Positions 15,815-53,145 of a stretch of DNA of 64,000 nt are shown in pieces (positions within the stretch are counted from its first letter, which is position 1; each line of letters opens with the position of its first letter). The translations under genes and the position numbers were made by a program. Origin of the DNA: Tilletiopsis washingtonensis (lineage: Eukaryota > Basidiomycota > Exobasidiomycetes > Entylomatales); NCBI RefSeq assembly GCF_003144115.1, contig NW_020312013.1, positions 413,143 through 477,142 on the forward strand, given 5' to 3'. The notes beneath the pieces were generated by a model. It searched no databases. It saw nothing but the letters and a program-made list of their open reading frames with translations, and was not told the origin of the DNA.

Positions 15815-17836
15815 GCTACCGCTGCGTGTGGCTCTGCGAGTCGAGGTGCGGCGGGGACGTGCACGGCGCCGGGCGCATCGCGCGGCGCCTAGGCCTGGAT
15901 GCTGGTGGCCACTGCACAGCTCGCGCCAGCAATTTGAGACGGCCGGCGCGTGTCTTGCGCTGATGGTGCAGCACGCGGCGCCAGTCGCAGCTGTGAAGTG
16001 TGCAGAGGCAGCGAGGAGATGGGAGTGGAGAGGCGAGGCAGGCGGGGCGGACGTGTTCCCACGCAGCTTGGGACACCCCGCTCGGAACTCGGGCCTCGGC
16101 GCCTCGCACTCCCTCGCACTCCCTCGCTCACCTTCACTCCTCTCGCTGCTCCATTCTGAGCATGATACATGCACTGAGATACTTAGCCAGACTTGAGACT
16201 AGAGGCTGCAGCGACAGAGACAGGTCTGACCTCTGAGATGGCGCGACAGAACGTGCTGTTGTCAGCGGAAGCTTGAGCCAGGGCGCAAAACGTGACGTGC
16301 ACGGTGTCTTTCCCGTGCTCTCGGCGGCCTGCCTACAGTCCAGTCCTTCGCCGGCACACTTCGTATCGTTCTGCTGCGCAAACACTTCCCAGACGGTGAT
16401 TTTGAGCCTAGGAGCTAGTCCTCCACGCCGAAAGGAGCCGTGCGCCGATGTCAAGAGCCTGTCTCGCAGCCCTCGCCTCTCGCACGTGACGGTGCGCGTC
16501 CGGCCGCGCGCGCGGCGAGGCACGACGACGGACGCCCCTCCCACCCGTCTGCGCCTCTCCCATTCATTCCGGTGCTGAGCTACGGACCAGACGAGGAGGT
16601 TCACGCTGCTGCTCTGCTTGCCCTGCACTGAGAGCTGCAGTCGTTCGGAGGCTGAGCGCCGCTCGACGTGGCTGCATGGCAGCGGGTGCAAATCTGGGCG
16701 CGCGTGCAGGCGAGGTGAGGCGCAAGGGCAGGGGCAAGGCGCAGCTCGAGCGGAGTGCGGCCGCCGCGCGCGCTGCCCGATGGCGCCGAACTCGGGGCGT
16801 GGGGCCTTGCCTGCTGGATGCTGCAGCGCTGGCCTCTGGAGCTTGCTGCCTACCGCAGTCTTGCCGCAGCATCGACAGGGCGGTGACAAGCCAGCGCCAA
16901 GGCAGAACCGCATAACCAGCCAGCCGTAGCGAGACCCTCTGGAGAGGTGAAAAAGGGACGGCCGAGGAAAGCAGCGCGCGCGTCAGGGGCTCGTGCGCAC
17001 GTCTTGTCTGGTGCTGGAAGCAAGGACCTCGAGCTCTCTTCTCTGTGCCCTGCGCGCTCTGCTCTTTCGAGTGGCAGCTGGCATGCAGAGGCCATTCGAC
17101 TGCGACAGGCTTGTACCAAGGCGGCTCGGCGTCCCTGCGAAGCATGTGAGGCTGCTGGCGAGGCGGCATGCTCTCGGCCTCCGAACCGTAGACGATCGAA
17201 AGCCCGACCCGACGAGGTGCCTCGACGAGCCGCGCTCCCGAGGCGGGTCCTCCTGCCAGGCAGCCTGCTGCATTCCGTCCGCGCTGCCGTCATCTCACCC
17301 GACCCCAGCCCATCCGTCGACGGCGTCTCGCAGCCTTTCAAGCTGGACGGGACGTCCGAGGCACAAGCTGGGCTGCAGCTGAGGTCTCACCGCCGCTGCC
17401 TGCCATGCGCATCGTGCAGCATCAGCTGCGAGCGGCGGCCGGCAGAGGAGCAGTCGCGCGGTGCGGTGCGTAGGTGGGCGAGCCGTGCTCTGCTGCCGCT
17501 GCTGGCGTGCCTGCTGCTGGCGCGCGGCTGCTCTGCTGAGCCGCCGCATGCCGCCTGCCTGCCGCGTGCCGTGCGCGCGACGCTGCGCTGGCCGGAGCGC
17601 ACGCACCGCCGCGCACCTCGCGGCATCCCTTTCCTGTCGCTCCTCCTTCCATCCTCCATCCGCATCAGCCCGCCCGTGCGCCTCACTCCTCTCGCACCGG
17701 GCGCACCCACATCCTATCCGCCCACACACATCGCTCGCCGTGCGGCCTCCTCTCGCCGTGCAGTGCGCTGCTGCAGCGTGAGCGCCGGCGTGCCTGACGT
17801 GCACCTGCGCGCCGGCCCCGCGCCGCTGCCTCTGCC
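15815..17836. other. Long divergent intergenic region
   Basis: About 2 kb between the divergent CDK8 and DYRK genes. Several mid-sized open frames overlap on both strands but carry no domain or conserved start. The last roughly 250 bases before 17837 are C/T-rich and probably hold the DYRK promoter and leader. I see no RNA gene or repeat. Confidence 0.5.
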
Positions 17837-24218
<6,382 letters not shown>

Positions 24219-32147: not shown

Positions 32148-35009
32148 ATGGGTCTCTTCTCCCGGCTGCGCCGTCGTGGGCGCGATGACGACGAACGCGC
32201 GCCGCTGCTGGCCCAGCAAGCTGCGCCGCCGCCGCGCAAGACGCCGCTGCCGCGCATGCAGCTCTTTGTGCTCTGTCTGATGCGCCTCAGCGAGCGTAAG
32301 TCTGTCGGAGGGGGCGTCGACTGCTGCGTACGTGCTGATGCTGACGCTTGGCTTCTCCGGCAGCTATTGCGTTCACGGTCAGCGCCAGAGGCGACGACGA
32401 AGCGCTGACTCATGGCTGATGCGCGCGCCTCTCGCAGTGCATCTTTCCCTTTGTGCCGCAGATGCTGCACGACAATCTGCCTGGCGTGCCGAGCAAGCAG
32501 ATAGGCTGTGAGTTGCTGCGCAACCATTCTCTCACTTTCACCGCTCATCACCTCCTCGCTCAGACTACGCCGGCCTCGTCGAGTCGCTCTTTGCGCTCGT
32601 GCAGTTCCTCACCGGCCTGCTCTGGGGCTCGCTGAGCGATCGCATCGGACGTAAGCCCGTGCTGCTCATTGGCCTGCTGGGCACCTTTGCCTCGGTCAAT
32701 GCTTTTGGTCTTTCGCGCAGCTTCAATCAGATGATCGCCGCGCGCGCGCTCAACGGCCTGATGAACGGCAACGTGGCCGTCATCCGCTCTGTGCTTGGCG
32801 AACTGACGGACGAGACGGTGAGCTCGGCCTTTGCGCGAAGCCATCGTGCCGTGCTGACACTGTGCATCGCTGCAGAATCAAGCGCGGTGAGTCGCGGCCA
32901 GCTCGGGGAGATGCGGCCGAGACTGACACGTCCTCGTCACAGCGCCTTCTCCTTTCTGCCGCTCATGTATGCCATCGGCAGCATCATCGGCCCCACCCTC
33001 GGCGGCACACTCTCTGACCCCGTGCATGCGTTTCCCTGGCTTTTCGGACGCTCCGAGTTCCTGGCCACGTATCCATACTGGCTGCCATGCGGCGTCGCGG
33101 GCGCACTCAATGTCGTGGGCCTCGTCATTGGCTTTTTCTACCTCGAGGAGACGCTGCCTTCCAAGGCTGCACCGCCGCCCTCTCCCCGGGACGAGAGCAA
33201 CGAGACACCAGAGGGCAGCGCCACGCCCACGCTCACGCATCGTCTCTCCGAGCCCGACTTGCATCGCGCCACCCTTGCACGCGCAGCTTCGCGCCTGGCA
33301 GCTCGACGTGCCGGCGAGGCGGCAGCGGCCGCAGAGCGCCAAGCAGCGCAGGAGGAGCTGCCGGTGCCATTCCGTGCCATCCTCACTGGCAATGTCATCA
33401 AGGTGCTGACGAACCAGGCGCTCATCAACCTCATCAACATCTCCTACATGGCTGCCCTGCCGCTCTTTTGCTACACCGACGTGGCCGAGGGCGGGCTGAG
33501 CTTCAGCAAGGCGGGTGAGTGGCTGAGCGCGCCAGGCGCCACCCGTGTGCTCAACAAGCTCGCGCAGATATCGGCAACCTCCTTGCCGCCAACGGCGTGT
33601 GTGCCATCTTCGTGCAGCTCTTCCTCTTTCCCTACCTCGAAGGGCGCATCGGTGGACCTCAGCCGTTGCTCAAGCGCGTGCTGCCCTTCTTCGCCTCTGC
33701 CTTTCTGCTCTTTCCGCTTGCACACGCCGCTGCTTTGCTGGGCCGTGCGCAGGTCTGGAGCGTGCTCGGCGTCATTCTCGTGGTGCGCAGCATCGGCGGC
33801 ATGAGCATCGTCACGGGCACGCTGTGCATCAACAACATCGCGCCGAACCGCGCCAGCTTGGGCCGCGTCAATGGGCTGGCGCAAAGTCTCGGCAGTCTGG
33901 CAAGAGCCATCGGGCCGATTGGCAGCAGCTCCCTCTTCGCCTTTTCCATTGAACATCCCGACCTCCTCGGCGGCCAACTCGTTTGGTACACACTCTTCGC
34001 CATCGCCGCCCTCACATGGCTCCTCTCGCTGCGCATCCGCGACGCCAACAAGGCGCGCTGGCGCAAGGAGAAGCGTGTGCTAGCGGCCCCAGCCCCGATG
34101 GCCGCCGATGGTGAGGCCGCACCCGCGGAAGTCTTTACGACGATGCTTCTCTCCGCAGCCGCGACGCCCGCGGCGACGCTCGAATCCCTGCTTCCGCCGC
34201 AGCTCTGCGCCATGCTCCACGAGGCATCACCACGCACGCAGGGCGACGTCGTCTCGACTCATGTGCTCGCACGCCGCATCCCTCTGCTGCGCGAGCATCT
34301 GCGACGTCTCTCCACTGCCGTGGCGGCGCTGCACGCAGCCGCGCCGTCCGCGTGGCAGACGCCTGCCAGCTACGCCGCGCTCTCGGAGGAGCGTCTGCTG
34401 CAGGCGCTGCACGAGGCGCTAGATGGTCAGACCGAGGCGCGGCGAGTCAGACTGGCCCTTTCACGAGAAGAAGGAGTCGTGGCAGTGCAACACTATGCTC
34501 TCTCGCAAGTGCCGCAATCTCCTTCCGTCAGGCTCGACGTCGAAGCAACTCGGCCGCGCACTGGCACACTCGACGACGTAGTGCTCCGCCACAAGACATC
34601 TGCGCGCGGCATCTACGACGAAGCTCGCTCTCGGGTGCACGCCACGCTGGGTGCTCCTGCTGCGGCGAGGGACCAAGCAGCGTGCTTTGACGTGCTGCTC
34701 TGGCTCGAAGAGAGCGGCGAGCGACTACTGACGGAGAGCAGCATTGCCTCTGTGTTGCTACAGCTCGCTCCTTCTTCCTCGTCATCCGCAGCAGGAGAAG
34801 CAGAAGAGAGGCCCGTAGCGCGCTTCGTCACGCCTCCAAGGCGCCTGCCGCTGCTGCCGGGAGTGGTGCGCAGCGAACTGCTGCGACGAGGCGCGGTGCG
34901 CGAAGAAGAGATCAGCGTGGCACGCCTCAAGAGCGAATTGCAGAGAGGAGGTAGACTGTGGCTCGTCAATGCGCTGAGAGGCGCATTTGAGGTGCACTTG
35001 ATACCGTAG
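32148..35009 (+). CDS. MFS transporter fused in frame to an aminodeoxychorismate-lyase-like PLP enzyme, 836 aa
   Basis: Exons 32148-32295, 32364-32377 (14 nt), 32438-32507, 32564-32817, 32876-32886 (11 nt), 32943-33514 and 33568-35009. Residues about 40-520 are a major-facilitator transporter: GLLWGSLSDRIGRKPVLLIG is the loop 2-3 signature, followed by many hydrophobic helices and a charged central loop. The last helix (LVWYTLFAIAALTWLLSL) runs without a stop, through KARWRKEKR, into a second module from about residue 534. That module has the class IV aminotransferase/ADC-lyase pattern: EVFTTMLL, RHKTSARGIYDEAR with the probable Schiff-base Lys (about residue 699), DVLLWLEESGERLLTESSI, TPPRRLPLLPGVVRSELL and NALRGAFEV. 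ADC lyase makes p-aminobenzoate for folate. A separate internal start at Met534 (34098) cannot be excluded. Confidence 0.8.
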
Positions 35010-35176
35010 CGCAGCACGCGGAGGCTATATTATACATTGCCCTGAAGAGCCGCAGAAGAGGCGTGATGCATTCGGAGCGGGATCGACGCAAGGCGAAAGG
35101 GTAGTGCGCCGGCAGAGGTGCGCGCACGCGACGTCAGGTCGCCACTCTCGATGTGGATGACCGATCCCTCGGCACA

Positions 35177-36079
35177 TCAGAAGTCCGTGGCGCGGCCACC
35201 GTAGCTCCACTCGCGCGCCCAGGTGAGGGGGTCCTGCTTTGGGCCGCCCACCTCGCCCGTCTCGGGGTTCGTCTCGCCCTCAAAGTCGGGCGAAGGCTTG
35301 CGCCGCGCATCGGGATGCACGGGATCGCCGTCGGAGGGCACTTGGGCCGAGGTGAATTGCAGTGCGTCTGAAAGAGGATAGGCTCAGCGATTGCCCACGC
35401 GCGGATAGCAGGAGGTGCGAACGAGGCAAGGACGTGCAACGTCTGAGCGAGAAGGAGATCAAGACTGTCTCTGAAGGACGGAGGCAAGCGCGCGCATAGA
35501 TCACCACACGGCCATTGCACTGCCCCTGATTGCACGCCGAGCGATCATCCTCCCACGGTCGGCGAGCGCAGCCGCGCTTGCCACTCCGACACGGGTGCGT
35601 GCAGGGCTCGCTCGAGGCGTCCATGCGTCGTCGTCCGCGCCTCGTCGCCAGCGAGTGCCGCCGGCAGCTCGCGGGGTTCGTCACGTCCAGCGCCAGGCAG
35701 GGCATCACCGCGCGGTGCAGAGTGTCGCCACCGCGCCGGTCCTGTCTAGCTCCAGAGCAGTCCTCCTTGCCACCGCGCCGGCCTTGTCTGGCTCCCGAGC
35801 CGTGCTGCTTGCTCCATTGCCCTCCTCGTCCTTAGCTGCACGCGACGGCGACGACTCACTGCTCTTCTCCTTGACGAGCTTCTCGAACTCCCTCTGTTCG
35901 CGCGGCGGCAAGGAAGGCGGGCCTGGCCGGCTGAAGAGCTTGCCGTTGCCGCCGCCGCCGCCGCTGCTGCTGCTGCTGCCCTCGCCCTGCTGCAAGGCGC
36001 AGGCGGAGGTGCGCAGTGTGCGCGCCGAGGCGCAAGAAAGGCGCAGCGGCGGCAGGAGTGCGGTGCGAAGGGCGAGCAT
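35177..36079 (-). CDS. SDHAF4: Succinate dehydrogenase assembly factor 4 (DUF1674), mitochondrial, 136 aa
   Basis: Two exons in transcript order, 36079-35860 and 35367-35177, with a 492-nt intron. The N-terminus MLALRTALLPPLRLSCASAR, with further Arg/Ser, is a good mitochondrial presequence. A Ser/Gly linker and RPGPPSLPPREQREFEKLVK follow. Exon 2 encodes HPDARRKPSPDFEGETNPE, then TGEVGGPKQDPLTWA and the family-defining end WSYGGRATDF. SDHAF4 binds flavinylated Sdh1 and aids its joining with Sdh2 in complex II assembly. The donor at 35859 (GTGAGT) was chosen because it gives the right phase and skips Pro/Ala-rich sequence not seen in the family; the unspliced frame ends in an unrelated tail. 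ATG 36079 is preferred over in-frame ATG 36127 because it gives the better presequence. Confidence 0.87.
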
Positions 36080-42013: not shown

Positions 42014-43163
42014 GCGCACAACGCCCGGCAATTCCACCTCGCGCATCTTTCTTCGCATCCTCAATCTCCGAATCGCTCCACTCAACTGTCTCCCTCGGCA
42101 TTGCCTGCCTGGGACACGCTGGCAGCCCAGCCCCTCCGCTCCTCCACCCCTCGCCTCCATCCGGCCGGTCTCCTGCTTCCCATGCGCGCTCCTCTCCGCT
42201 CCCTCTCTCTGCTCTCTGGTCCCCTCTATCCCTTCGCACCGCAAAGCACCTCGCCCTTCCACCCAGGTTTCTCTTATTCTGCTCCGGATCACCCCATCTC
42301 CCCTGTGCGGCCCGCTGCCTGCTTCTCTCCAGTCACCCGACGTGGTCTGCCTTCTCCTTATTCCGGCCCCCAGCGCTCTGCCTCGCGATCTGCCTCGCGC
42401 CAGCGTTGCCTCCTTCTCTTTGTCGCCATGCCCGTCGCGCGCGCCCGCAGCGCCGCCTGCAATTTGCATCGTCATTGTCACCCTGTGCTGCTGGGCGCTG
42501 TGAGAGCGAGCCGGTGCCGAGAGACGGCTGGTGCGAACGCCAGGGCCTCGCGGGACCTCGTCTTGGGGCTGCCGTCACGTGCGGCGTGGGAGCGAGCCCC
42601 TGCGCGGACAGAGGGCCGTCGAAGGCGCACGGCGGCTGCATCTGACACGGCGTGCGTGCCTGGCGCTCCCGGCTGCCCTGTGATGACGCTGGCCGGCCGC
42701 GCGAGCGACCCTCGCGCCTCGCGAGTCGTGCACGGCGCAGGCGTGACGGCCGCTGATCGACCTCGGCTCGCCTCGACTGCGCGGCGCGCCCCGCTCCCTT
42801 CTCCTCGCCCACCATCACCACCGCCCGGCCTGCCTCAAGTCAGCTCCCGCAAGGCCGTCTCTCCCTCCCACCACCCGCACCGCACCGCCACGCCGCCCGG
42901 CTCGCCTCCACTCTCGCCTCGCCTGCTGCGCCCGCCCCCACGCATGCAGCCCCTCGCTGCGTCTGCGTCGTGCTGCCCCTGACTCTGCCCACCGCTCGCA
43001 AGTGCGCCAGCGCTCGCGGTCTCTGCTGCGCCCTCACAGCGCCGCGCTGCCCGCACCCGCACTTGCCTGCCTCTCGCGCACCAACTCGACGCCCTTGCCG
43101 CCAGTCGCTCTTCGCCTTCTCTCCGAAGCCCAAGCCCTGCCGTGCGAGCTGCGCCGACATCTA
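42014..43163. other. Pyrimidine-rich intergenic region
   Basis: About 1.15 kb between two same-strand genes, the only neighbouring pair in the window that is not on opposite strands. Long CT-rich stretches (about 42040-42430 and 42780-42960) suggest the leader and promoter of the HECT gene. No gene on either strand is supported. Confidence 0.55.
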
Positions 43164-46100
43164 ATGGAGGACTCGCGCGCGCAGTCTAACCCGAGTCACC
43201 CCACCACACACGCGCCGTCACTCCCTGCTCCCGACACTGCATCTGCTGCACCCGCCGCCGCGCCGCACACGCCTGCCCTCGCCGCCGCCAAGCGCCACAC
43301 TCGCTCCTCCACCACCCTAGACACCGGCACTGGCAGCAGCAGCAGCAGCAGCAGCAGCGCCGCCGCCGCCGCCGCCGCCCCGCCTGCTTCCGCACACAGC
43401 GCTCGCCGCGTCACTCGCGCTGCCGCCGCCGCAGCTGCCGCCGCCGTTGCATCGCCCGCCAGCGCCGCCTCGCCGTCGTCGCTCTCCAGCGCCTCGTCGT
43501 CGCGCCGCTCCAAGCGCAGCTCCGGCAGCGACGCCTCGTCGCTCAGCCAGCGCGCCCGCTCGCCTGCAGACACGCCGGCCACGACGGCATACAGCACGCC
43601 GGCCACCGTGCCTGCCTCTGCCGCCTCGTCGTCGTCGCGTGCACTCAAGAAGCGCGCTGCGCCGCAGGACCTCGACGACGAGCACGACGCCGAGACCACT
43701 GCCGCTGCTGCATCAGACGCCACGCCGTCTCGTGCGTCCAAGACTCGCGCGTCTGCACGCTCGCTCCGCTCCAGGTGGGTCATTCTCTCGCTCCGCTCAC
43801 GCGCAGCAGCTGATCCCTCTCCCTCCAGGGCCTCGACGCTCGCAGCGTCTTCGTCCAGCAAGGGCAAGAAGCGCCAGATCTCGCCCGAGCAGGCCGAGCC
43901 CGCCGGTCCAAGCAGCGACTCGTCGCGCAGCGCCAAGCGCCAGCGCCACTCGGACAGCGGCGCCTACAACCTGCGCCCTCGTGCTTCTGCCGCCTCGCTC
44001 GCCGACCAAGCAGCCGAGCCCAGCAGCAGCCGCAGCGGCGCCGCGAGTTCTCGCCGCAAGACGCGCTCCAGCATGAGCGGTCCTCGAGTGTCCAACAGCT
44101 CCGCCTCGGGCTCTACGGTCGACGTCGCGGGCAGCAGCGCCGGCGGCAGCCGCGCCGCAGCCGTGGCGGCCAAGGGCAAGAGCAAGGCGCGCAGCTCTGG
44201 CGCGCGTGGCTCGCGTGCGGCAGCGGCGCGCGGCGCCTCGGACGCGCCGCCGCGCATGAAGGCCGAGTGCGACGACGACCAGATGGAGGTCGACGTCGAG
44301 GCCGGTGCCGCGCTCGCCGACGCTGCCGACGAGGCCGAGGCCGAGGCAGAGGCCAAGTACTCCTTCAGCGAACTCAGCGGTAGCCACAGTCCCGAGGACG
44401 AAGAGGACGAGGGCGACGATGACGACGAAGACGCGGCAGCCGACAGCGGCGCCAGTCCCTTTGGCGCGCTGCAGATGGACGAGGACGACGAGGATGACGA
44501 TGAGGATGAGGGTCCGTACGACGACGAGGACGACATGGATGACCCGTACGGCGATGGCGGTCTTGGCGCGACGGGCGCCTATGGCCAGCTGCGCGCCATG
44601 GCAGGCTACATGTCGGGCCTCTCGGGCCGCTTCCGCACCCTGCTGGCGTCGCTGCGCAACTATGGCGACCCGACGATCCAGCTCGTGGCGCTACAGGAGC
44701 TCAGCGAGGTGCTCAGCATGAGCAATGAAGACACGCTCGCCGGCTACTTTCCGCTCGAGAGCTTCGTCCGCGAGCTCATTCACCTCATGGGCGGGCCCAA
44801 GCCGAGCGAGGCCGGTGCTGCTGGCGCAGCGGCAGAGGACAGCGGCGACGAGGAGGAACGCCTCAACGCCGCCGCTATTGCGGCCGCCACGGCCGAGGAC
44901 AACGGCGAGGCCGCACTGCTGGCGTGCCGCTGTCTTGCCAACCTCATCGAGGCGATGCCGTACGCCGCCCACCAGGTCGTCGGCATGGGCCTGCTGCCCG
45001 TGCTCCTCTCGAAGCTCAAGGAGATTCAGTTCATCGATCTGGCGGAGCAGGTGCTGCAGGTGAGCTGCGCCACGCGCGCGTGCTGCGTCCGCGACTGCGC
45101 ACTGACGCTTCTCCCACAGACGCTCGAGAAGATCTCGGCCGAGTATCCGACGGCCATCGTGCGCGAGGGCGGCCTGCTGGCCATGCTGCAGTTCATCGAC
45201 TTCTTCGGCGTGCACGTGCAGCGCACGGCCATGCAGGCGGCGGCGCACTGCTGCCGCAAGCTGGGCGAGGAGTCGTTTGCAAAGGTGCGCGAGGTGATGC
45301 CGATCATCCAGAACGTGCTGGGCTACGCGGATCAGCGCCTCGTCGAGTCGGCATGCAAGTGCGTCGTGCGTGCCGTCGAGAGCTACCGCCATCATGGCGA
45401 GCTGCTGGAGCAGCTTCTGACCGGCGAGCTCCTCTCTGCCGTCAACGCCATCCTGCTGCCCGGCTCGGCTGCCGGTGTCTCGGGCGGCGGCGGCGGCGCC
45501 ACCGCCGTCAGCACATCGACGTACACCGACATCCTCAAGATGCTCAGCTCGGCCGCGCACGCCAGTCCCAAGGTGGCCGTGATGCTGCTCGAGCACAACA
45601 TCGTCGAGACGCTCTATCTGCTGCTCACTGGATCACCGGCACCGGCAGAGGACGGCTCGGGCGGCCGTGGACCTGCGGCGCTGGATTCCGTGCCCGGTGA
45701 GACCGAAGGCGCGGGCGGCGCGGCGTCTGGCTCTGCCGAGGCGGCGCCCATTGCCGTCGTGGCGCAGGCCAGTGATGCTCTCGTCGTCGACAGCGTGGCC
45801 GTGGCCGACGTGGCGGTGCTGCAGAACCTGGCACAGCGGCCCAAAGAGCAAGTGCAGGAGGCGCTCTCGCTCGTGGGAGAGCTCATGCCGCCGCTGCCAC
45901 GCGACGGCGTCTTCGATGCACGCGCCTACAGCGAGAAGGCGTACCTGCGCAAGAAGAGCCGCGATGCCAAGAATGCGCGTGCGGCACAGCGCGCAAAGGC
46001 GGCGGCCGCAAAGGGCGGCAACACGGCCATCAAGCAGGAGCCCGACGCCGAGATGGCGAGCGCAACGGCTTCTTCGAGCGCGGCGCCGGCGCCCTCTGCC

Positions 46101-49100
46101 GACGTGCCGATCAAGAGCGAGCGCGTCAAGACGGAGCGCGAGCTGGCAAAGGAGTCGGCACAGGCCAAGCGCGTCGAGATGCTCACGGAGCGCAAGGCGC
46201 TCGTCAAGCGCTTCACACAGCTCGTCCTGCCCACGCTCGTCGAGGTGTACGCCGCCAGCGTGGCGCTGCATGTGCGCACAAAGGCCCTCTCGGGCATCCT
46301 CAAGATCGTCAGCTTCGTCGAGGCCGAGCCGCTCAGCGAGGTGCTTGACGTGAGTTGTGCTGGTGCGGCTCCATCATCTCTTGCTGATCACGCGTCGACC
46401 ATCAGAACGTCCCGCTGGCCAGCTTCGCAGCGAGCATCCTGTCTGCACGCGACAACCCGGCGCTGGTCCTGGGCGCGCTGCAGATGGTCGAACTGCTCAA
46501 CGCCAAGCTGCCGAGCGTGTACAGCGCCGCTCTGCGCCGCGAGGGCGTCGTGTGGGAGATCGAGGACATTGCCAACAAGGAGCCGACGGCATCGACGGTG
46601 GCCGCCTCGCCCTCCAAGACGCGCGATGACAAGCCTGCAGCGACCAACCCCTCGGTCTCGGCATCTGCACAGCTGCTCCAGGCCCTCGCTGGCGATGGCC
46701 GTCGCGCCGACGACGCCAGCCCCGAGGCATCTCGTGCGCGCCTGCAGGCGCTGCGCGAGCAGACACGCGAGCTCACCGAGGCCAGTGCACGCTTTCTCGC
46801 GGCGGGCAGCAGCATTACCAGGAAGCCGCCGGTCACCAGCGCAGATGCGGCCGTCGCAGCTGCGACGGAGCAGGAGGACGCCAACATCTGGCGCGCGCGC
46901 CTGCTGCGCGACCGCTTCAACGAGGACGTCGTGGCGGGCGGCACGGCCGAAGGCTCCGAGGCTCTGCGTGCACTCGACAACCTGCAGGCTCTCTCGGCCA
47001 CGCTTGGTGCCGAGGCTGTCGGTGACGAGGCTGTAGCCGAGCAGACGCTGCAGGCCATCGCGCCGCTCTTCTCGCAGCGCGACAGTCCCATCTCCAGCTT
47101 CGAGCTGCTGCGCTCCGGCCTCGTCGACGCGCTGTACGAGTTTGCAGTCGGCAACTCGGCGGCTGTGCCGACAGAGCGGCGCCGGGCACTCTTGCTCGAC
47201 GCACTCATGGCCAGCTCTGCCGACGGCGGCTCGACGGCCGCGGCGGCGCTGGTGCGCCGCCTGCAGGAGACGCTGAGCCGCCTGGAGAAGTTTGAGATCA
47301 CCGCGGCCATCACCAGTGGCGGCGAGGACACGCGGCGCAGCCCCACGGCCAACGTCTCGCGCGCCGTGCGCCTCAAGCTCGTCGCCGACGGCAACACGAC
47401 GGGCATCCCGCGCACGTGCCAGAATGCGTTGATCACCATCCACGCCATCGCGCCTTTCCAGGCGGTCAACGACTATCTGCGGCCCAAGATTGCCGCGGGT
47501 CTCGCTGGCGGCCCGTCGGCGATTGGTGCTGGGGCCGGCGCGGCATCCCGCCTCTCCGGCATGCTGGCCGCAATGGCCGACTCGGGGCTCGAGCTGCCGC
47601 CCGGTCTCGCTGCCGCTGCCGCAGCCGTCGCAGCAGGTGGCCGCAAGAGAGTTGGCGCAGCAGACGCCCCTGCCGCCACTGCGTCCAGCGCCGCGGCAGA
47701 GGCCGGCTCGTCGAGCGCTGCAGCTGCACCGGCCTCCTCGAGCGAAGCTTCGGAGAAGCCGCGGCGCAGCTCGCGCCTCAGCGGTGCAAGCGCGCTGGGC
47801 GAGGCCGAGGCGCCAGACAGCGCGCCAGACGTCAAGGCTGAGGCTGATGTGAAGGCCGAGGCCCCGGCAGCCGCTGCTGCCGCGGACGCGCGCGACGAGG
47901 GCGAGGATGAGAACTCGGCTGCGGCGCGCCGCATCGTTGAGGACTTCATGGGCGCCATGGACGAGGAGGACGAGTTCGGCGGCGACTACGACGAGGAAGA
48001 CATCATCGACGACGCGGCCATGTCGGGCTTCGCGGCGCGTGCCGGCGACACGTCGACGTCGAGCAACGAGGACCGCACGGTGAACCTCAAGGTCACGGGC
48101 GACGCGAGCTCCGCCAGTGCGGGCACGCCGGCCGCGTCGCGGTCAGGCTCGGGCAATAACGCCGCGGTCCCGGCAGCCACCGCCGCGAGCGGCAGCGGCA
48201 GCAGTACCGAGACGGCCGCTGCGCCGAAGCCGTCGTACGCGTCCATGGCGCAGAAGCAGCCAAACGACTGGCACCTCGTGTTCGAGGTCGGCGGACAGCC
48301 CGTCAGCCTCGACTCGACGATCTACCGTGCGATCCACAATTTCGAGATGACGCCGGAGCGCCAGACCACCGGCCTGCACCGCCACATTTGGAACAACGTG
48401 TACACGGTCAAGTTCCGCCGCGTCGACGGGCCGGCACCCGCACCTGCTGCGGGTGAGTTTCGTGCGCAGGCACGCCTGGGCCACACCGCTGACCTTCGCA
48501 CAGCCGCCGCGACGCCCGAGCCGGAGGACGCCTCGTCGTCGGCCGTCGTGCTGCCCTCTTCTGTCGCCGAGGACGCGTCGTTCGCCAAAATTCTGCAGCT
48601 GCTGAGCGTGCTGCACGAGCTCAACGCCGAGTGGCGGCAGGACCCAGCGCGCAGCGAGAGTGCCGGCGTGGCTGCGCTCTCCGAGGCCGCATTCGTCAAC
48701 AACAAGCTGACGGCCAAGCTGAACCGGCAGCTCGAGGAGCCGCTGGTCGTGGCGAGCGCGTGTCTGCCCGACTGGGCGCTCGAGCTGCCCAAGACGTTCC
48801 CCTTCCTCTTCCCCTTCGAGGCGCGCTACTCGTTCCTGCAGAACACGGCCTTTGACTGCCCGCGCCTCATCGCGCGCTGGCAGACGCAGCAGTCGCGCAA
48901 CCAGGATCCCTCGTCGGCGGCGGCGGCGTCGCGCACCGACGATGCGCGTGCCGTCGTGGGCCGCCTGAGCCGGCAGAAGGTGCGCATCGGGCGGCAGAAC
49001 ATCTTCGGCTCGGCGCTCAAGGTGTTTGAGCTCTACGGCTCGTCGTCGGCGCTGCTGGAGATCGAGTACTTCGACGAGGTCGGCACGGGCCTGGGACCAA

Positions 49101-50113
49101 CGCTCGAGTTCTACGCACTCGTCAGCAAGGAGTTTGCACGCAAGGATCTCGGCCTCTGGCGCGACGACGGCGCCGGCGCGGCCGACTCGCGCTTCGTCTC
49201 TGCCAAGCAGGGCCTCTTCCCGGCCGTGGCCGACGCCGCGACGCGCGCGGCGGCACAGACGCCCGAGAGCGAGGCGGCAAAGACGAATCTGCGGCTGCAG
49301 TCCTTTGTCGTGCTGGGCCAGTTCGTCGCAAAGGCGCTGCTCGACTCGCGCATCATCGACGTGCACTTTTCGTCGGTGTTCCTGCGCGCTGCGCTGCTCA
49401 ACGGCCGTGTGCCCGAGACGCTCGCCACGCTGGCGCAGGTGGACGCAGCGCTGGCGCGCAGCATGCAGCAGCTGCTTGCCATGCCGCCCGCCGACGTCGA
49501 GGCGCTCGGCCTCGACTTTACGCTTCCGGGCCGCGCCGAGTACGAGCTGCACGCCGGCGGCGCCAGCGAGACGGTCACGGGCGCCACGGTGCAGCAGTAC
49601 GTGGCCGAGGTGCTCTCGCACACGCTCGTGCAGGGCGTGCGACCCTACGTGCGCGCCTTCCGCCGCGGCTTCAACGGCATCTTGCCGCTCGGCAGCATGG
49701 CCAGCTTCAGTGCCGACGAGCTCGTGCTGCTCTTTGGCAACACTGACGAGGACTGGAGCGAGGCGACGCTGCTGGCTGCCATCAAGCCCGACCACGGCTT
49801 CACGGGCGACAGTCTGGCGTTCCGCGACGTCGTCGCGCTGATGGCGGCCTTCTCGCTCGACGAGCGCCGGCGCTTCCTGCAGTGGCTCACGGGCTCGCCC
49901 AAGCTGCCCATCGGCGGCCTGGCGGGCCTGCACCCGCAGCTGACGATCGTCAAGCGGCCGCACGAGGCGCCGCTGACGCCCGACGACTACCTGCCCTCGG
50001 TCATGACGTGCGTCAACTACCTCAAGCTGCCCGCCTACTCGAGCCGCGACGTCATGCGCCGCCGCCTCGAGACGGCCATGCGCGAGGGCGGCACGAGCTT
50101 CCACCTGTCGTGA
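43164..50113 (+). CDS. UFD4: UFD4/TRIP12-type HECT E3 ubiquitin ligase, 2,242 aa
   Basis: Exons 43164-43774, 43829-45059, 45120-46349, 46406-48452 and 48504-50113. Order: a Ser/Ala-rich disordered N-terminus with low-complexity runs, an acidic Asp/Glu block, and an armadillo-like region (YFPLESFVRELIHLMGG, EQVLQTLEKISAEYPTAIV, REGGLLAMLQFIDFFGV) as in TRIP12/Ufd4. A second acidic region and a C-terminal HECT domain follow. The HECT domain includes LEIEYFDEVGTGLGPTLEFY and ends LPSVMTCVNYLKLPAYSS with the thioester Cys at about residue 2209. Ufd4/TRIP12 ligases act in the ubiquitin-fusion-degradation pathway. Three of the four introns (54, 60 and 51 nt) are stop-free and in frame; the 60-nt one interrupts the conserved armadillo sequence, so it must be spliced. 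An upstream in-frame ATG at 43002 exists but adds a C-rich leader-like segment. Confidence 0.93.
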
Positions 50114-52559: not shown

Positions 52560-53145
52560 GCGGGAGAGAGAGAGTGAAGGATGGGAGGAGGGGCACGGGA
52601 AAACGGCACGTTGGCTCGGCTGGCCAATTTGCCTCACATGACGGGCGCGGAAAATCCGGCGCGCTCTCTCCCCCCATCGTCAAGTCCTGCTCGTCTACCG
52701 CCCTTTTGCGGCATCGNNNNNNNNNNNNNNNNNNNNCTCCCCTCTTTGCTCCTGCCAACGTCAAGGTCAAGCCAGAAGCGCAGCTTGCTCAGTCCTTGGC
52801 TTCCCAATACCCGCGCCAAAACTCGCTCCGTCGCCTTTGCGCCGTCGCGGCTTGAGCATATCGCCGCCCAATTGTCCCTCGCTCTTCTCCTGCTCGTGCC
52901 CTCTACCAACTCACTCTCACTCTCACTCTCGGCTCCCTCATTCAATGTCTCAACGATCATCACATACCCTTGCCGCATTCTCAACTACCCCTCCTCGCCT
53001 TGATCTCCCCGTCCCGCCCAATCACTAGTGGCCTTCTCGTAATCTATCTCGGCCTTCTCTCAACTCGCGCGTTGTGAGGTGCTTTCATTGTGATGTCGCT
53101 TGGCATAGATGTGCACGCCACGCCGGCTTTGAGATTTGAGAGGGA
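52560..53145. other. Convergent intergenic region with an assembly gap
   Basis: About 590 bases between the convergent DUF202 and Ctk2-type genes. It contains the 20-N gap at 52717-52736. The rest is C/T-rich with no supported gene. Confidence 0.6.
52717..52736. other. Assembly gap (20 N)
   Basis: Twenty unresolved bases. The round number suggests a placeholder rather than a measured length. It falls between genes and does not interrupt a coding region I call. Confidence 0.98.

Follow-up and report, generated by a model that had tools for sequence, protein, structure and literature searches.

The locus and its gene model

The window, by which the whole analysed stretch of 64,000 nucleotides is meant, comes from Tilletiopsis washingtonensis contig NW_020312013.1 (positions 413,143 to 477,142 of the forward strand). 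Positions 32148-35009 of its forward strand carry a gene model of seven exons (32148-32295, 32364-32377, 32438-32507, 32564-32817, 32876-32886, 32943-33514 and 33568-35009), separated by six introns of 53-68 nt that all have GT-AG borders. Splicing of the seven exons yields a 2511-nt frame of 836 codons and a stop, whose translation and Pfam matches describe an MFS transporter followed by a class IV PLP enzyme. The transporter half (aa 1-526, 32148-34076) is recognised by its MFS_1 domain, by matches to MFSD10 and NorA and by motifs A and C, and ends in the basic tail KARWRKEKR (aa 518-526, 34050-34076). Next comes an Ala/Pro linker (aa 527-544, 34077-34130), which is 18 residues long if the first strand of a low-pLDDT structure model is correctly placed. 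The aminodeoxychorismate-lyase-like module, counted from the methionine within the linker, comprises aa 534-836 and the stop codon (34098-35009), and is recognised by an Aminotran_4 domain, by the solved structure 3qqm and by relatives among bacterial PabB-PabC proteins. All of these features are on the forward strand.

Searches of the fused protein against Pfam placed MFS_1 at aa 43-473 (profile positions 2-347 of 347, E 9.6e-39; 133.7 bits at full length, with a cut-off of 33.4) and Aminotran_4 at aa 589-835 (profile positions 8-223 of 223, E 3e-12; 50.9 bits, with a curated cut-off of 28.5). For the enzyme module, aa 534-836, the Aminotran_4 match reached E 2.4e-13. Sugar_tr and TRI12 overlap the transporter half, the latter with a score below its cut-off, and these four were the only families matched in the fused protein at E ≤ 0.001, a chorismate-binding domain being absent at that threshold. 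Both halves can be read from these matches as clear homologues of their families. The Ala/Pro linker and the enzyme motifs share the reading frame of KARWRKEKR, and the original prediction of a last exon open from the transporter into the enzyme proved correct in its coordinates and motifs, the spliced translation carrying both Pfam domains in frame. A second copy of either half was not found in the window at E ≤ 0.01.

Immediately downstream, on the reverse strand and convergent with the fusion gene, lies the C-terminal part of a DUF1674 protein (35177-35374, PF07896, E 1.2e-16), presumably the succinate dehydrogenase assembly factor SDHAF4. Its stop codon (35177-35179) is 167 nt from the stop of the fusion gene, so genes can lie close together in this region. 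Two long open frames that overlap each other occupy 42747-50110; they match the repeats of the TRIP12 N-terminus and a HECT domain, and probably belong to a single large gene for a Ufd4/TRIP12-type ubiquitin ligase. Further frames in the window match SF3A2, BAR_2, glutaredoxin and protein kinase, a set that together with TRIP12 and HECT suits a fungal genome. A 1756-codon open frame at 17798-23065 has a partial protein kinase match, near its end only and below the Pfam cut-off. A tRNA-Tyr of 93 bases (anticodon gta), perhaps intron-bearing, is located at 1165-1257 on the reverse strand, and a run of 20 N at 52717-52736 is an assembly gap.

Continuity of the frame across the join

The space between the two halves can be measured in two ways. 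The structure model, whose pLDDT is about 34 at this point, has its first enzyme strand at 34131 (domain residue 12), leaving 54 nt after the end of the basic tail at 34076. In alignment A2 of the module with bacterial relatives (see below) the shared part begins at domain residue 49-50, giving a gap at 34077-34241 of about 165 nt. The linker contains an in-frame ATG at 34098 (M534), and the other two forward frames have stops at 34081 and 34112. It also contains two runs of CCCC (34087-34090 and 34093-34096), at which the draft may have slipped; a slip would leave two frames that are 14 nt apart or overlapping, depending on which of the two stops was used, and these would probably still be transcribed together.

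Openness of the linker was compared with that of fixed-frame stretches elsewhere in this GC-rich window, where the open share is 14869 of 18252 at a length of 51 nt, 8641 of 18161 at 210 nt and 8008 of 18148 at 234 nt. For two presumed intergenic regions the counts at 210 nt are 522 of 1262 and 1895 of 4782. Since 41-48% of stretches of the same length are open, an open linker of this size is weak evidence taken alone, and, given adjacency of the two halves, the chance of an accidental join in the same phase is roughly 15% (about 0.45 × 1/3). Stronger than openness are the continuous coding signal and the shortness of the interval, which would have to accommodate the stop and 3′ end of one gene as well as the promoter and 5′ leader of the next.

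Coding signal was scored by codon usage with two training sets. One was the transporter itself (aa 36-515), which overlaps the tested region up to aa 515, and the other was an independent frame of 1241 codons at 46388-50110. Under transporter training the fused frame ranks above the other five in all nine scoring intervals across 33966-34415; a rival frame scores above it in 6 of 22 intervals, all of them within 34371-34865. Under independent training the fused frame outscores both alternative forward frames in 4 of 4 segments, and in segment 34050-34127 it scores 1.9 versus -32.3 and -20.9, a gap to which stops in the two alternatives contribute. Over most of the enzyme half, this training gives all frames scores below background, the fused one included (-97.8).

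Signals for the end of a transcript were sought past the stop codon and at the join. A candidate 3′-end signal, an AT-rich stretch with 11 of 12 positions A or T, lies at 35026-35037 on the forward strand; a 12-mer that rich in A/T occurs in 4 of 1062 overlapping 121-nt stretches sampled across the window, some of which perhaps contain the 35026 site itself. No comparable stretch is present at the join, where the maximum is 8 of 12. A loose filter for GT...AG introns of 45-110 nt in 33900-34450 returned eight candidates, all of them lacking a branch point of the kinds considered. Three of these keep the frame, one of which (34111-34158, 48 nt) has the best donor of all eight, and the other five shift it and run into stops at aa 622-705, inside the enzyme. 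An intron at the join that brings in a stop was rejected, as no candidate gives a stop before aa 622; an intron of this type near 34080, which the original prediction had named as evidence that would speak against a fusion, was looked for throughout 33900-34450 and not found.

Type and topology of the transporter

The best solved relative of the transporter half is MFSD10 (6s4m), with E 2.8e-17 over aa 78-214, and NorA matches with E 8.5e-11 over aa 55-202; both alignments are confined to the N-terminal half. Among NCBIfam families, 62 match the transporter at E ≤ 0.1, and the best among the 25 of these that were listed is the Tet(A)/(B)/(C) efflux family, at 111 bits versus a cut-off of 475, so that the transporter is a relative of that family, not a member. 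Neither half of the protein reaches a specific NCBIfam cut-off among the matches listed, in a collection that is built for bacterial and archaeal proteins.

In DHA1-type drug/H+ antiporters motif A sits between helices 2 and 3 and motif C lies in helix 5, and motif C marks proton antiporters. By the patterns of these motifs, the transporter has motif A as GSLSDRIGRK at aa 99 and motif C as GSIIGPTLGG at aa 178, a pairing that would favour export over import. Hydropathy places ten helices above the threshold, with the positions of helices 4 and 11 falling below it (12 are expected of the DHA1 type). The N-terminus has 9 K+R versus 4 D+E and the C-terminal tail is basic. In the central loop the charges almost balance (11 K+R versus 12 D+E), so that it is of no help for topology. 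Taken with the positions of the helices, the basic N-terminus and the basic C-terminal tail would put both ends of the transporter on the cytosolic side, and the enzyme with them.

The enzyme module and its bacterial relatives

Sequence searches of the PDB at E ≤ 1 gave two matches to the module, namely Mlr3007 of Mesorhizobium loti (3qqm, E 3.9e-9) and 8pnw (E 0.0023), the second of which is named a branched-chain aminotransferase/ADC lyase. The best NCBIfam match is NF005731 (PRK07546), at 51.6 bits versus a cut-off of 189, and 3qqm is presumably of this PRK07546 kind; the aminodeoxychorismate lyase family NF005888 scores 14 bits versus a cut-off of 273. A structure model of the module, made with 27 sequences, is mediocre overall (mean pLDDT 64, pTM 0.63). 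Foldseek searches with this model returned 12 matches at E ≤ 0.001, the best being again 3qqm (E 5e-10), followed by branched-chain-type aminotransferases or transaminases (2hdk, 3csw, 9j0v) and then by the putative ADC lyases 3ceb and 2zgi; an E. coli PabC entry did not occur in the 50 matches listed.

A tblastn search of plasmids found one weak match (E 0.2), in the pabB gene of a Sphingomonas, which encodes a protein with this type of module at its C-terminal end. An alignment of the fungal module with this Sphingomonas PabB-PabC module seeded a genome scan, in which 44 pattern matches led to 30 confirmed loci. Sequences titled Sphingomonas, Novosphingobium, Croceicoccus or Sphingomonadales account for 28 of the 30, and one each is titled Microvirga and 'bacterium'. 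A PabB part is in frame with the module at 29 of the 30 loci, a frequency that is overstated by the PabB-PabC seed of the scan. The same-frame PabB motif was recognised by the first pattern at 25 loci and by a looser look at two more (L003 and L024), and a same-frame Chorismate_bind domain was found by Pfam at L005 and L021; at L026 the PabB motif is in a separate upstream frame of 210 aa. The nearest bacterial relatives found are PabC modules of PabB-PabC proteins. The flanks of the 30 modules, up to 4 kb, contain no transporter-like stretch by tblastn at E ≤ 1, and so they give no outside support for a functional link between carrier and enzyme. Viral contigs gave seven stretches for the enzyme half and four for the transporter half, none of which was confirmed in either case.

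Alignment A2 combines the fungal module with 26 of the 30 loci (L011, L019, L025 and L029 were left out), and across these 27 sequences the lysine of LRHKTS, the LTE glutamate, TP, LPG and NA-RG are invariant. The lysine, aa 699 (domain K166, 34593-34595), is the predicted PLP-binding residue, by analogy with the family, and the glutamate of LLTES, aa 746 (domain E213, 34734-34736), is the residue predicted to face the PLP ring nitrogen. The asparagine of the NAL(R) motif is aa 824 (domain N291, 34968-34970). Both the LTE glutamate and the NAL asparagine are shared with and align to those of E. coli PabC, which has 21% identity to the module; at that level of identity MAFFT did not align the E. 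coli lysine to K166. About 35 residues of the fungal module (domain residues 19-53, 34152-34256) form an insertion that none of the 26 aligned bacterial relatives has. Its placement differs between methods, in that A2 has a 38-residue gap at domain residues 11-48 and the low-pLDDT model puts strand 1 before the insertion.

The ADC-lyase-like nature that the original prediction gave to the C-terminal module is supported by the Aminotran_4 match, by 3qqm, by the PabB-PabC relatives and by the kept catalytic residues. On these grounds the class IV module is very probably an aminodeoxychorismate lyase.

Interpretation of the locus

The best explanation of the locus, with a probability of roughly 0.6, is one gene that gives one membrane protein, a transporter fused to an ADC lyase. 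A complete MFS frame continues stop-free over a short linker and then encodes a class IV PLP module that is likewise complete. The transporter would have both termini on the cytosolic side and export its substrate by proton coupling in the manner of DHA1/MFSD10 carriers, and the C-terminal module, by way of PLP on the lysine at aa 699, would free pyruvate from aminodeoxychorismate and form PABA at the face of the membrane. The fusion would most likely fix the co-expression and co-location of this PABA-making step with the exporter, and movement of PABA or a related compound by the carrier would be speculative.

The locus might instead give two products, one being the transporter and the other a soluble ADC lyase of its own with ATG 34098 as start codon, either by an internal promoter or internal initiation or because two frames were joined by error, and perhaps from a bicistronic transcript. 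This is a possible reading, although an unlikely one. Its start codon is suitably placed, 11 codons ahead of the first predicted enzyme strand (a position of low confidence in the model), the other-frame stops at 34081 and 34112 and the two CCCC runs lie near the join, and the draft state of the window shows in its gap of 20 N. Close neighbours do occur, as the convergent DUF1674 gene illustrates, and multi-gene read-through transcripts have been described in mushroom fungi (PMC4503453). However, the gene pairs in that paper have stops in all frames between the genes, and the fused frame here has none. Separate control of two genes would also be hard to envisage when a stop at 34081 leaves them 14 nt apart and one at 34112 makes them overlap, and the join is without an AT-rich stretch resembling a 3′ end.

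The other readings accept a real fusion and differ in what the protein would do. The original prediction had proposed that catalysis and transport are coupled, the carrier moving PABA, aminodeoxychorismate or another chorismate-derived compound. Coupling of this kind would be consistent with the physical joining of enzyme and carrier, with a motif C that suggests export, and with the bacterial fusions of the same kind of module to the preceding enzyme of the pathway, which indicate that the module does fuse with pathway partners. Against it, the 30 bacterial loci have no such transporter in their flanks, the relatives of the carrier are multidrug and tetracycline-type transporters with no link to PABA as a substrate, and PABA export by fungal MFS carriers is not described in the available portions of the literature matches listed; the proposal is improbable. 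A stricter version, in which a proton-coupled exporter with a built-in ADC lyase forms PABA (or a related aromatic) right at its own entrance and delivers it to an organelle or to the outside of the cell, is quite doubtful; if it were true, such a carrier-enzyme chimera would channel a folate precursor in a way that is new for fungi. It is very doubtful that the module is a D-amino-acid or branched-chain-type transaminase, or an enzyme of dual activity. Class IV enzymes do switch substrates, with one mycobacterial member performing both the ADC lyase and the D-amino-acid transaminase reaction (PMC8105722), and both the second PDB match, 8pnw, and the Foldseek matches ranking directly after 3qqm point in that direction. 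The nearest bacterial relatives found are nonetheless PabB-PabC modules, the asparagine of the NAL motif is kept as in E. coli PabC, and PMC8105722 counts N236, to which N291 of the fungal module would correspond, among the ADC-lyase-specific residues.

Fusion to an enzyme gives a clue to what an MFS carrier moves, and many of the DHA1-like transporters of fungi have no known cargo. If the fused gene is expressed and kept in relatives, an uncharacterised exporter would be tied to the PABA/folate branch; if the join is recent and unconserved, it would be a clean case of domain accretion without a shown function.

Comparison with known systems

A fusion of an MFS transporter with an ADC lyase is not described in the open-licence literature, within the available portions of the matches listed, and within the scope of that literature it would be a new combination of two known families. 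The DHA1 carriers MFSD10 (6s4m), NorA and Tet(A)/(B)/(C) resemble the transporter half in the alignment of the N-terminal half and in the presence of motifs A and C, and are not known to carry an enzyme domain.

Yeast Abz2 is a fungal ADC lyase of which the same reaction is expected as of the module, and it is encoded by a gene of its own, ABZ2 (PMC4882779); the separate yeast gene contrasts with the fusion here. In Coprinopsis, Pab1 is a fusion of PabA and PabB, after which an ADC lyase forms PABA (PMC7552465). The best solved relative of the module by both sequence and fold, Mlr3007 of Mesorhizobium loti (3qqm), differs from the fungal protein in being a free-standing polypeptide of 221 residues in its record, and is named only as a putative amino-acid aminotransferase. 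Another close parallel is provided by the PabB-PabC proteins of Sphingomonadales (for example Sphingomonas parapaucimobilis WP_347092215.1), which have a C-terminal module with LRHKTSARG-YD-AR, LTE-S, TPP, LLPGV-R and NALRG and which show 28-36% identity to the fungal module over the best segment at the 30 loci. The fungal module has a stretch of about 35 residues that theirs lack, and it follows an MFS transporter, whereas theirs follows component I of ADC synthase.
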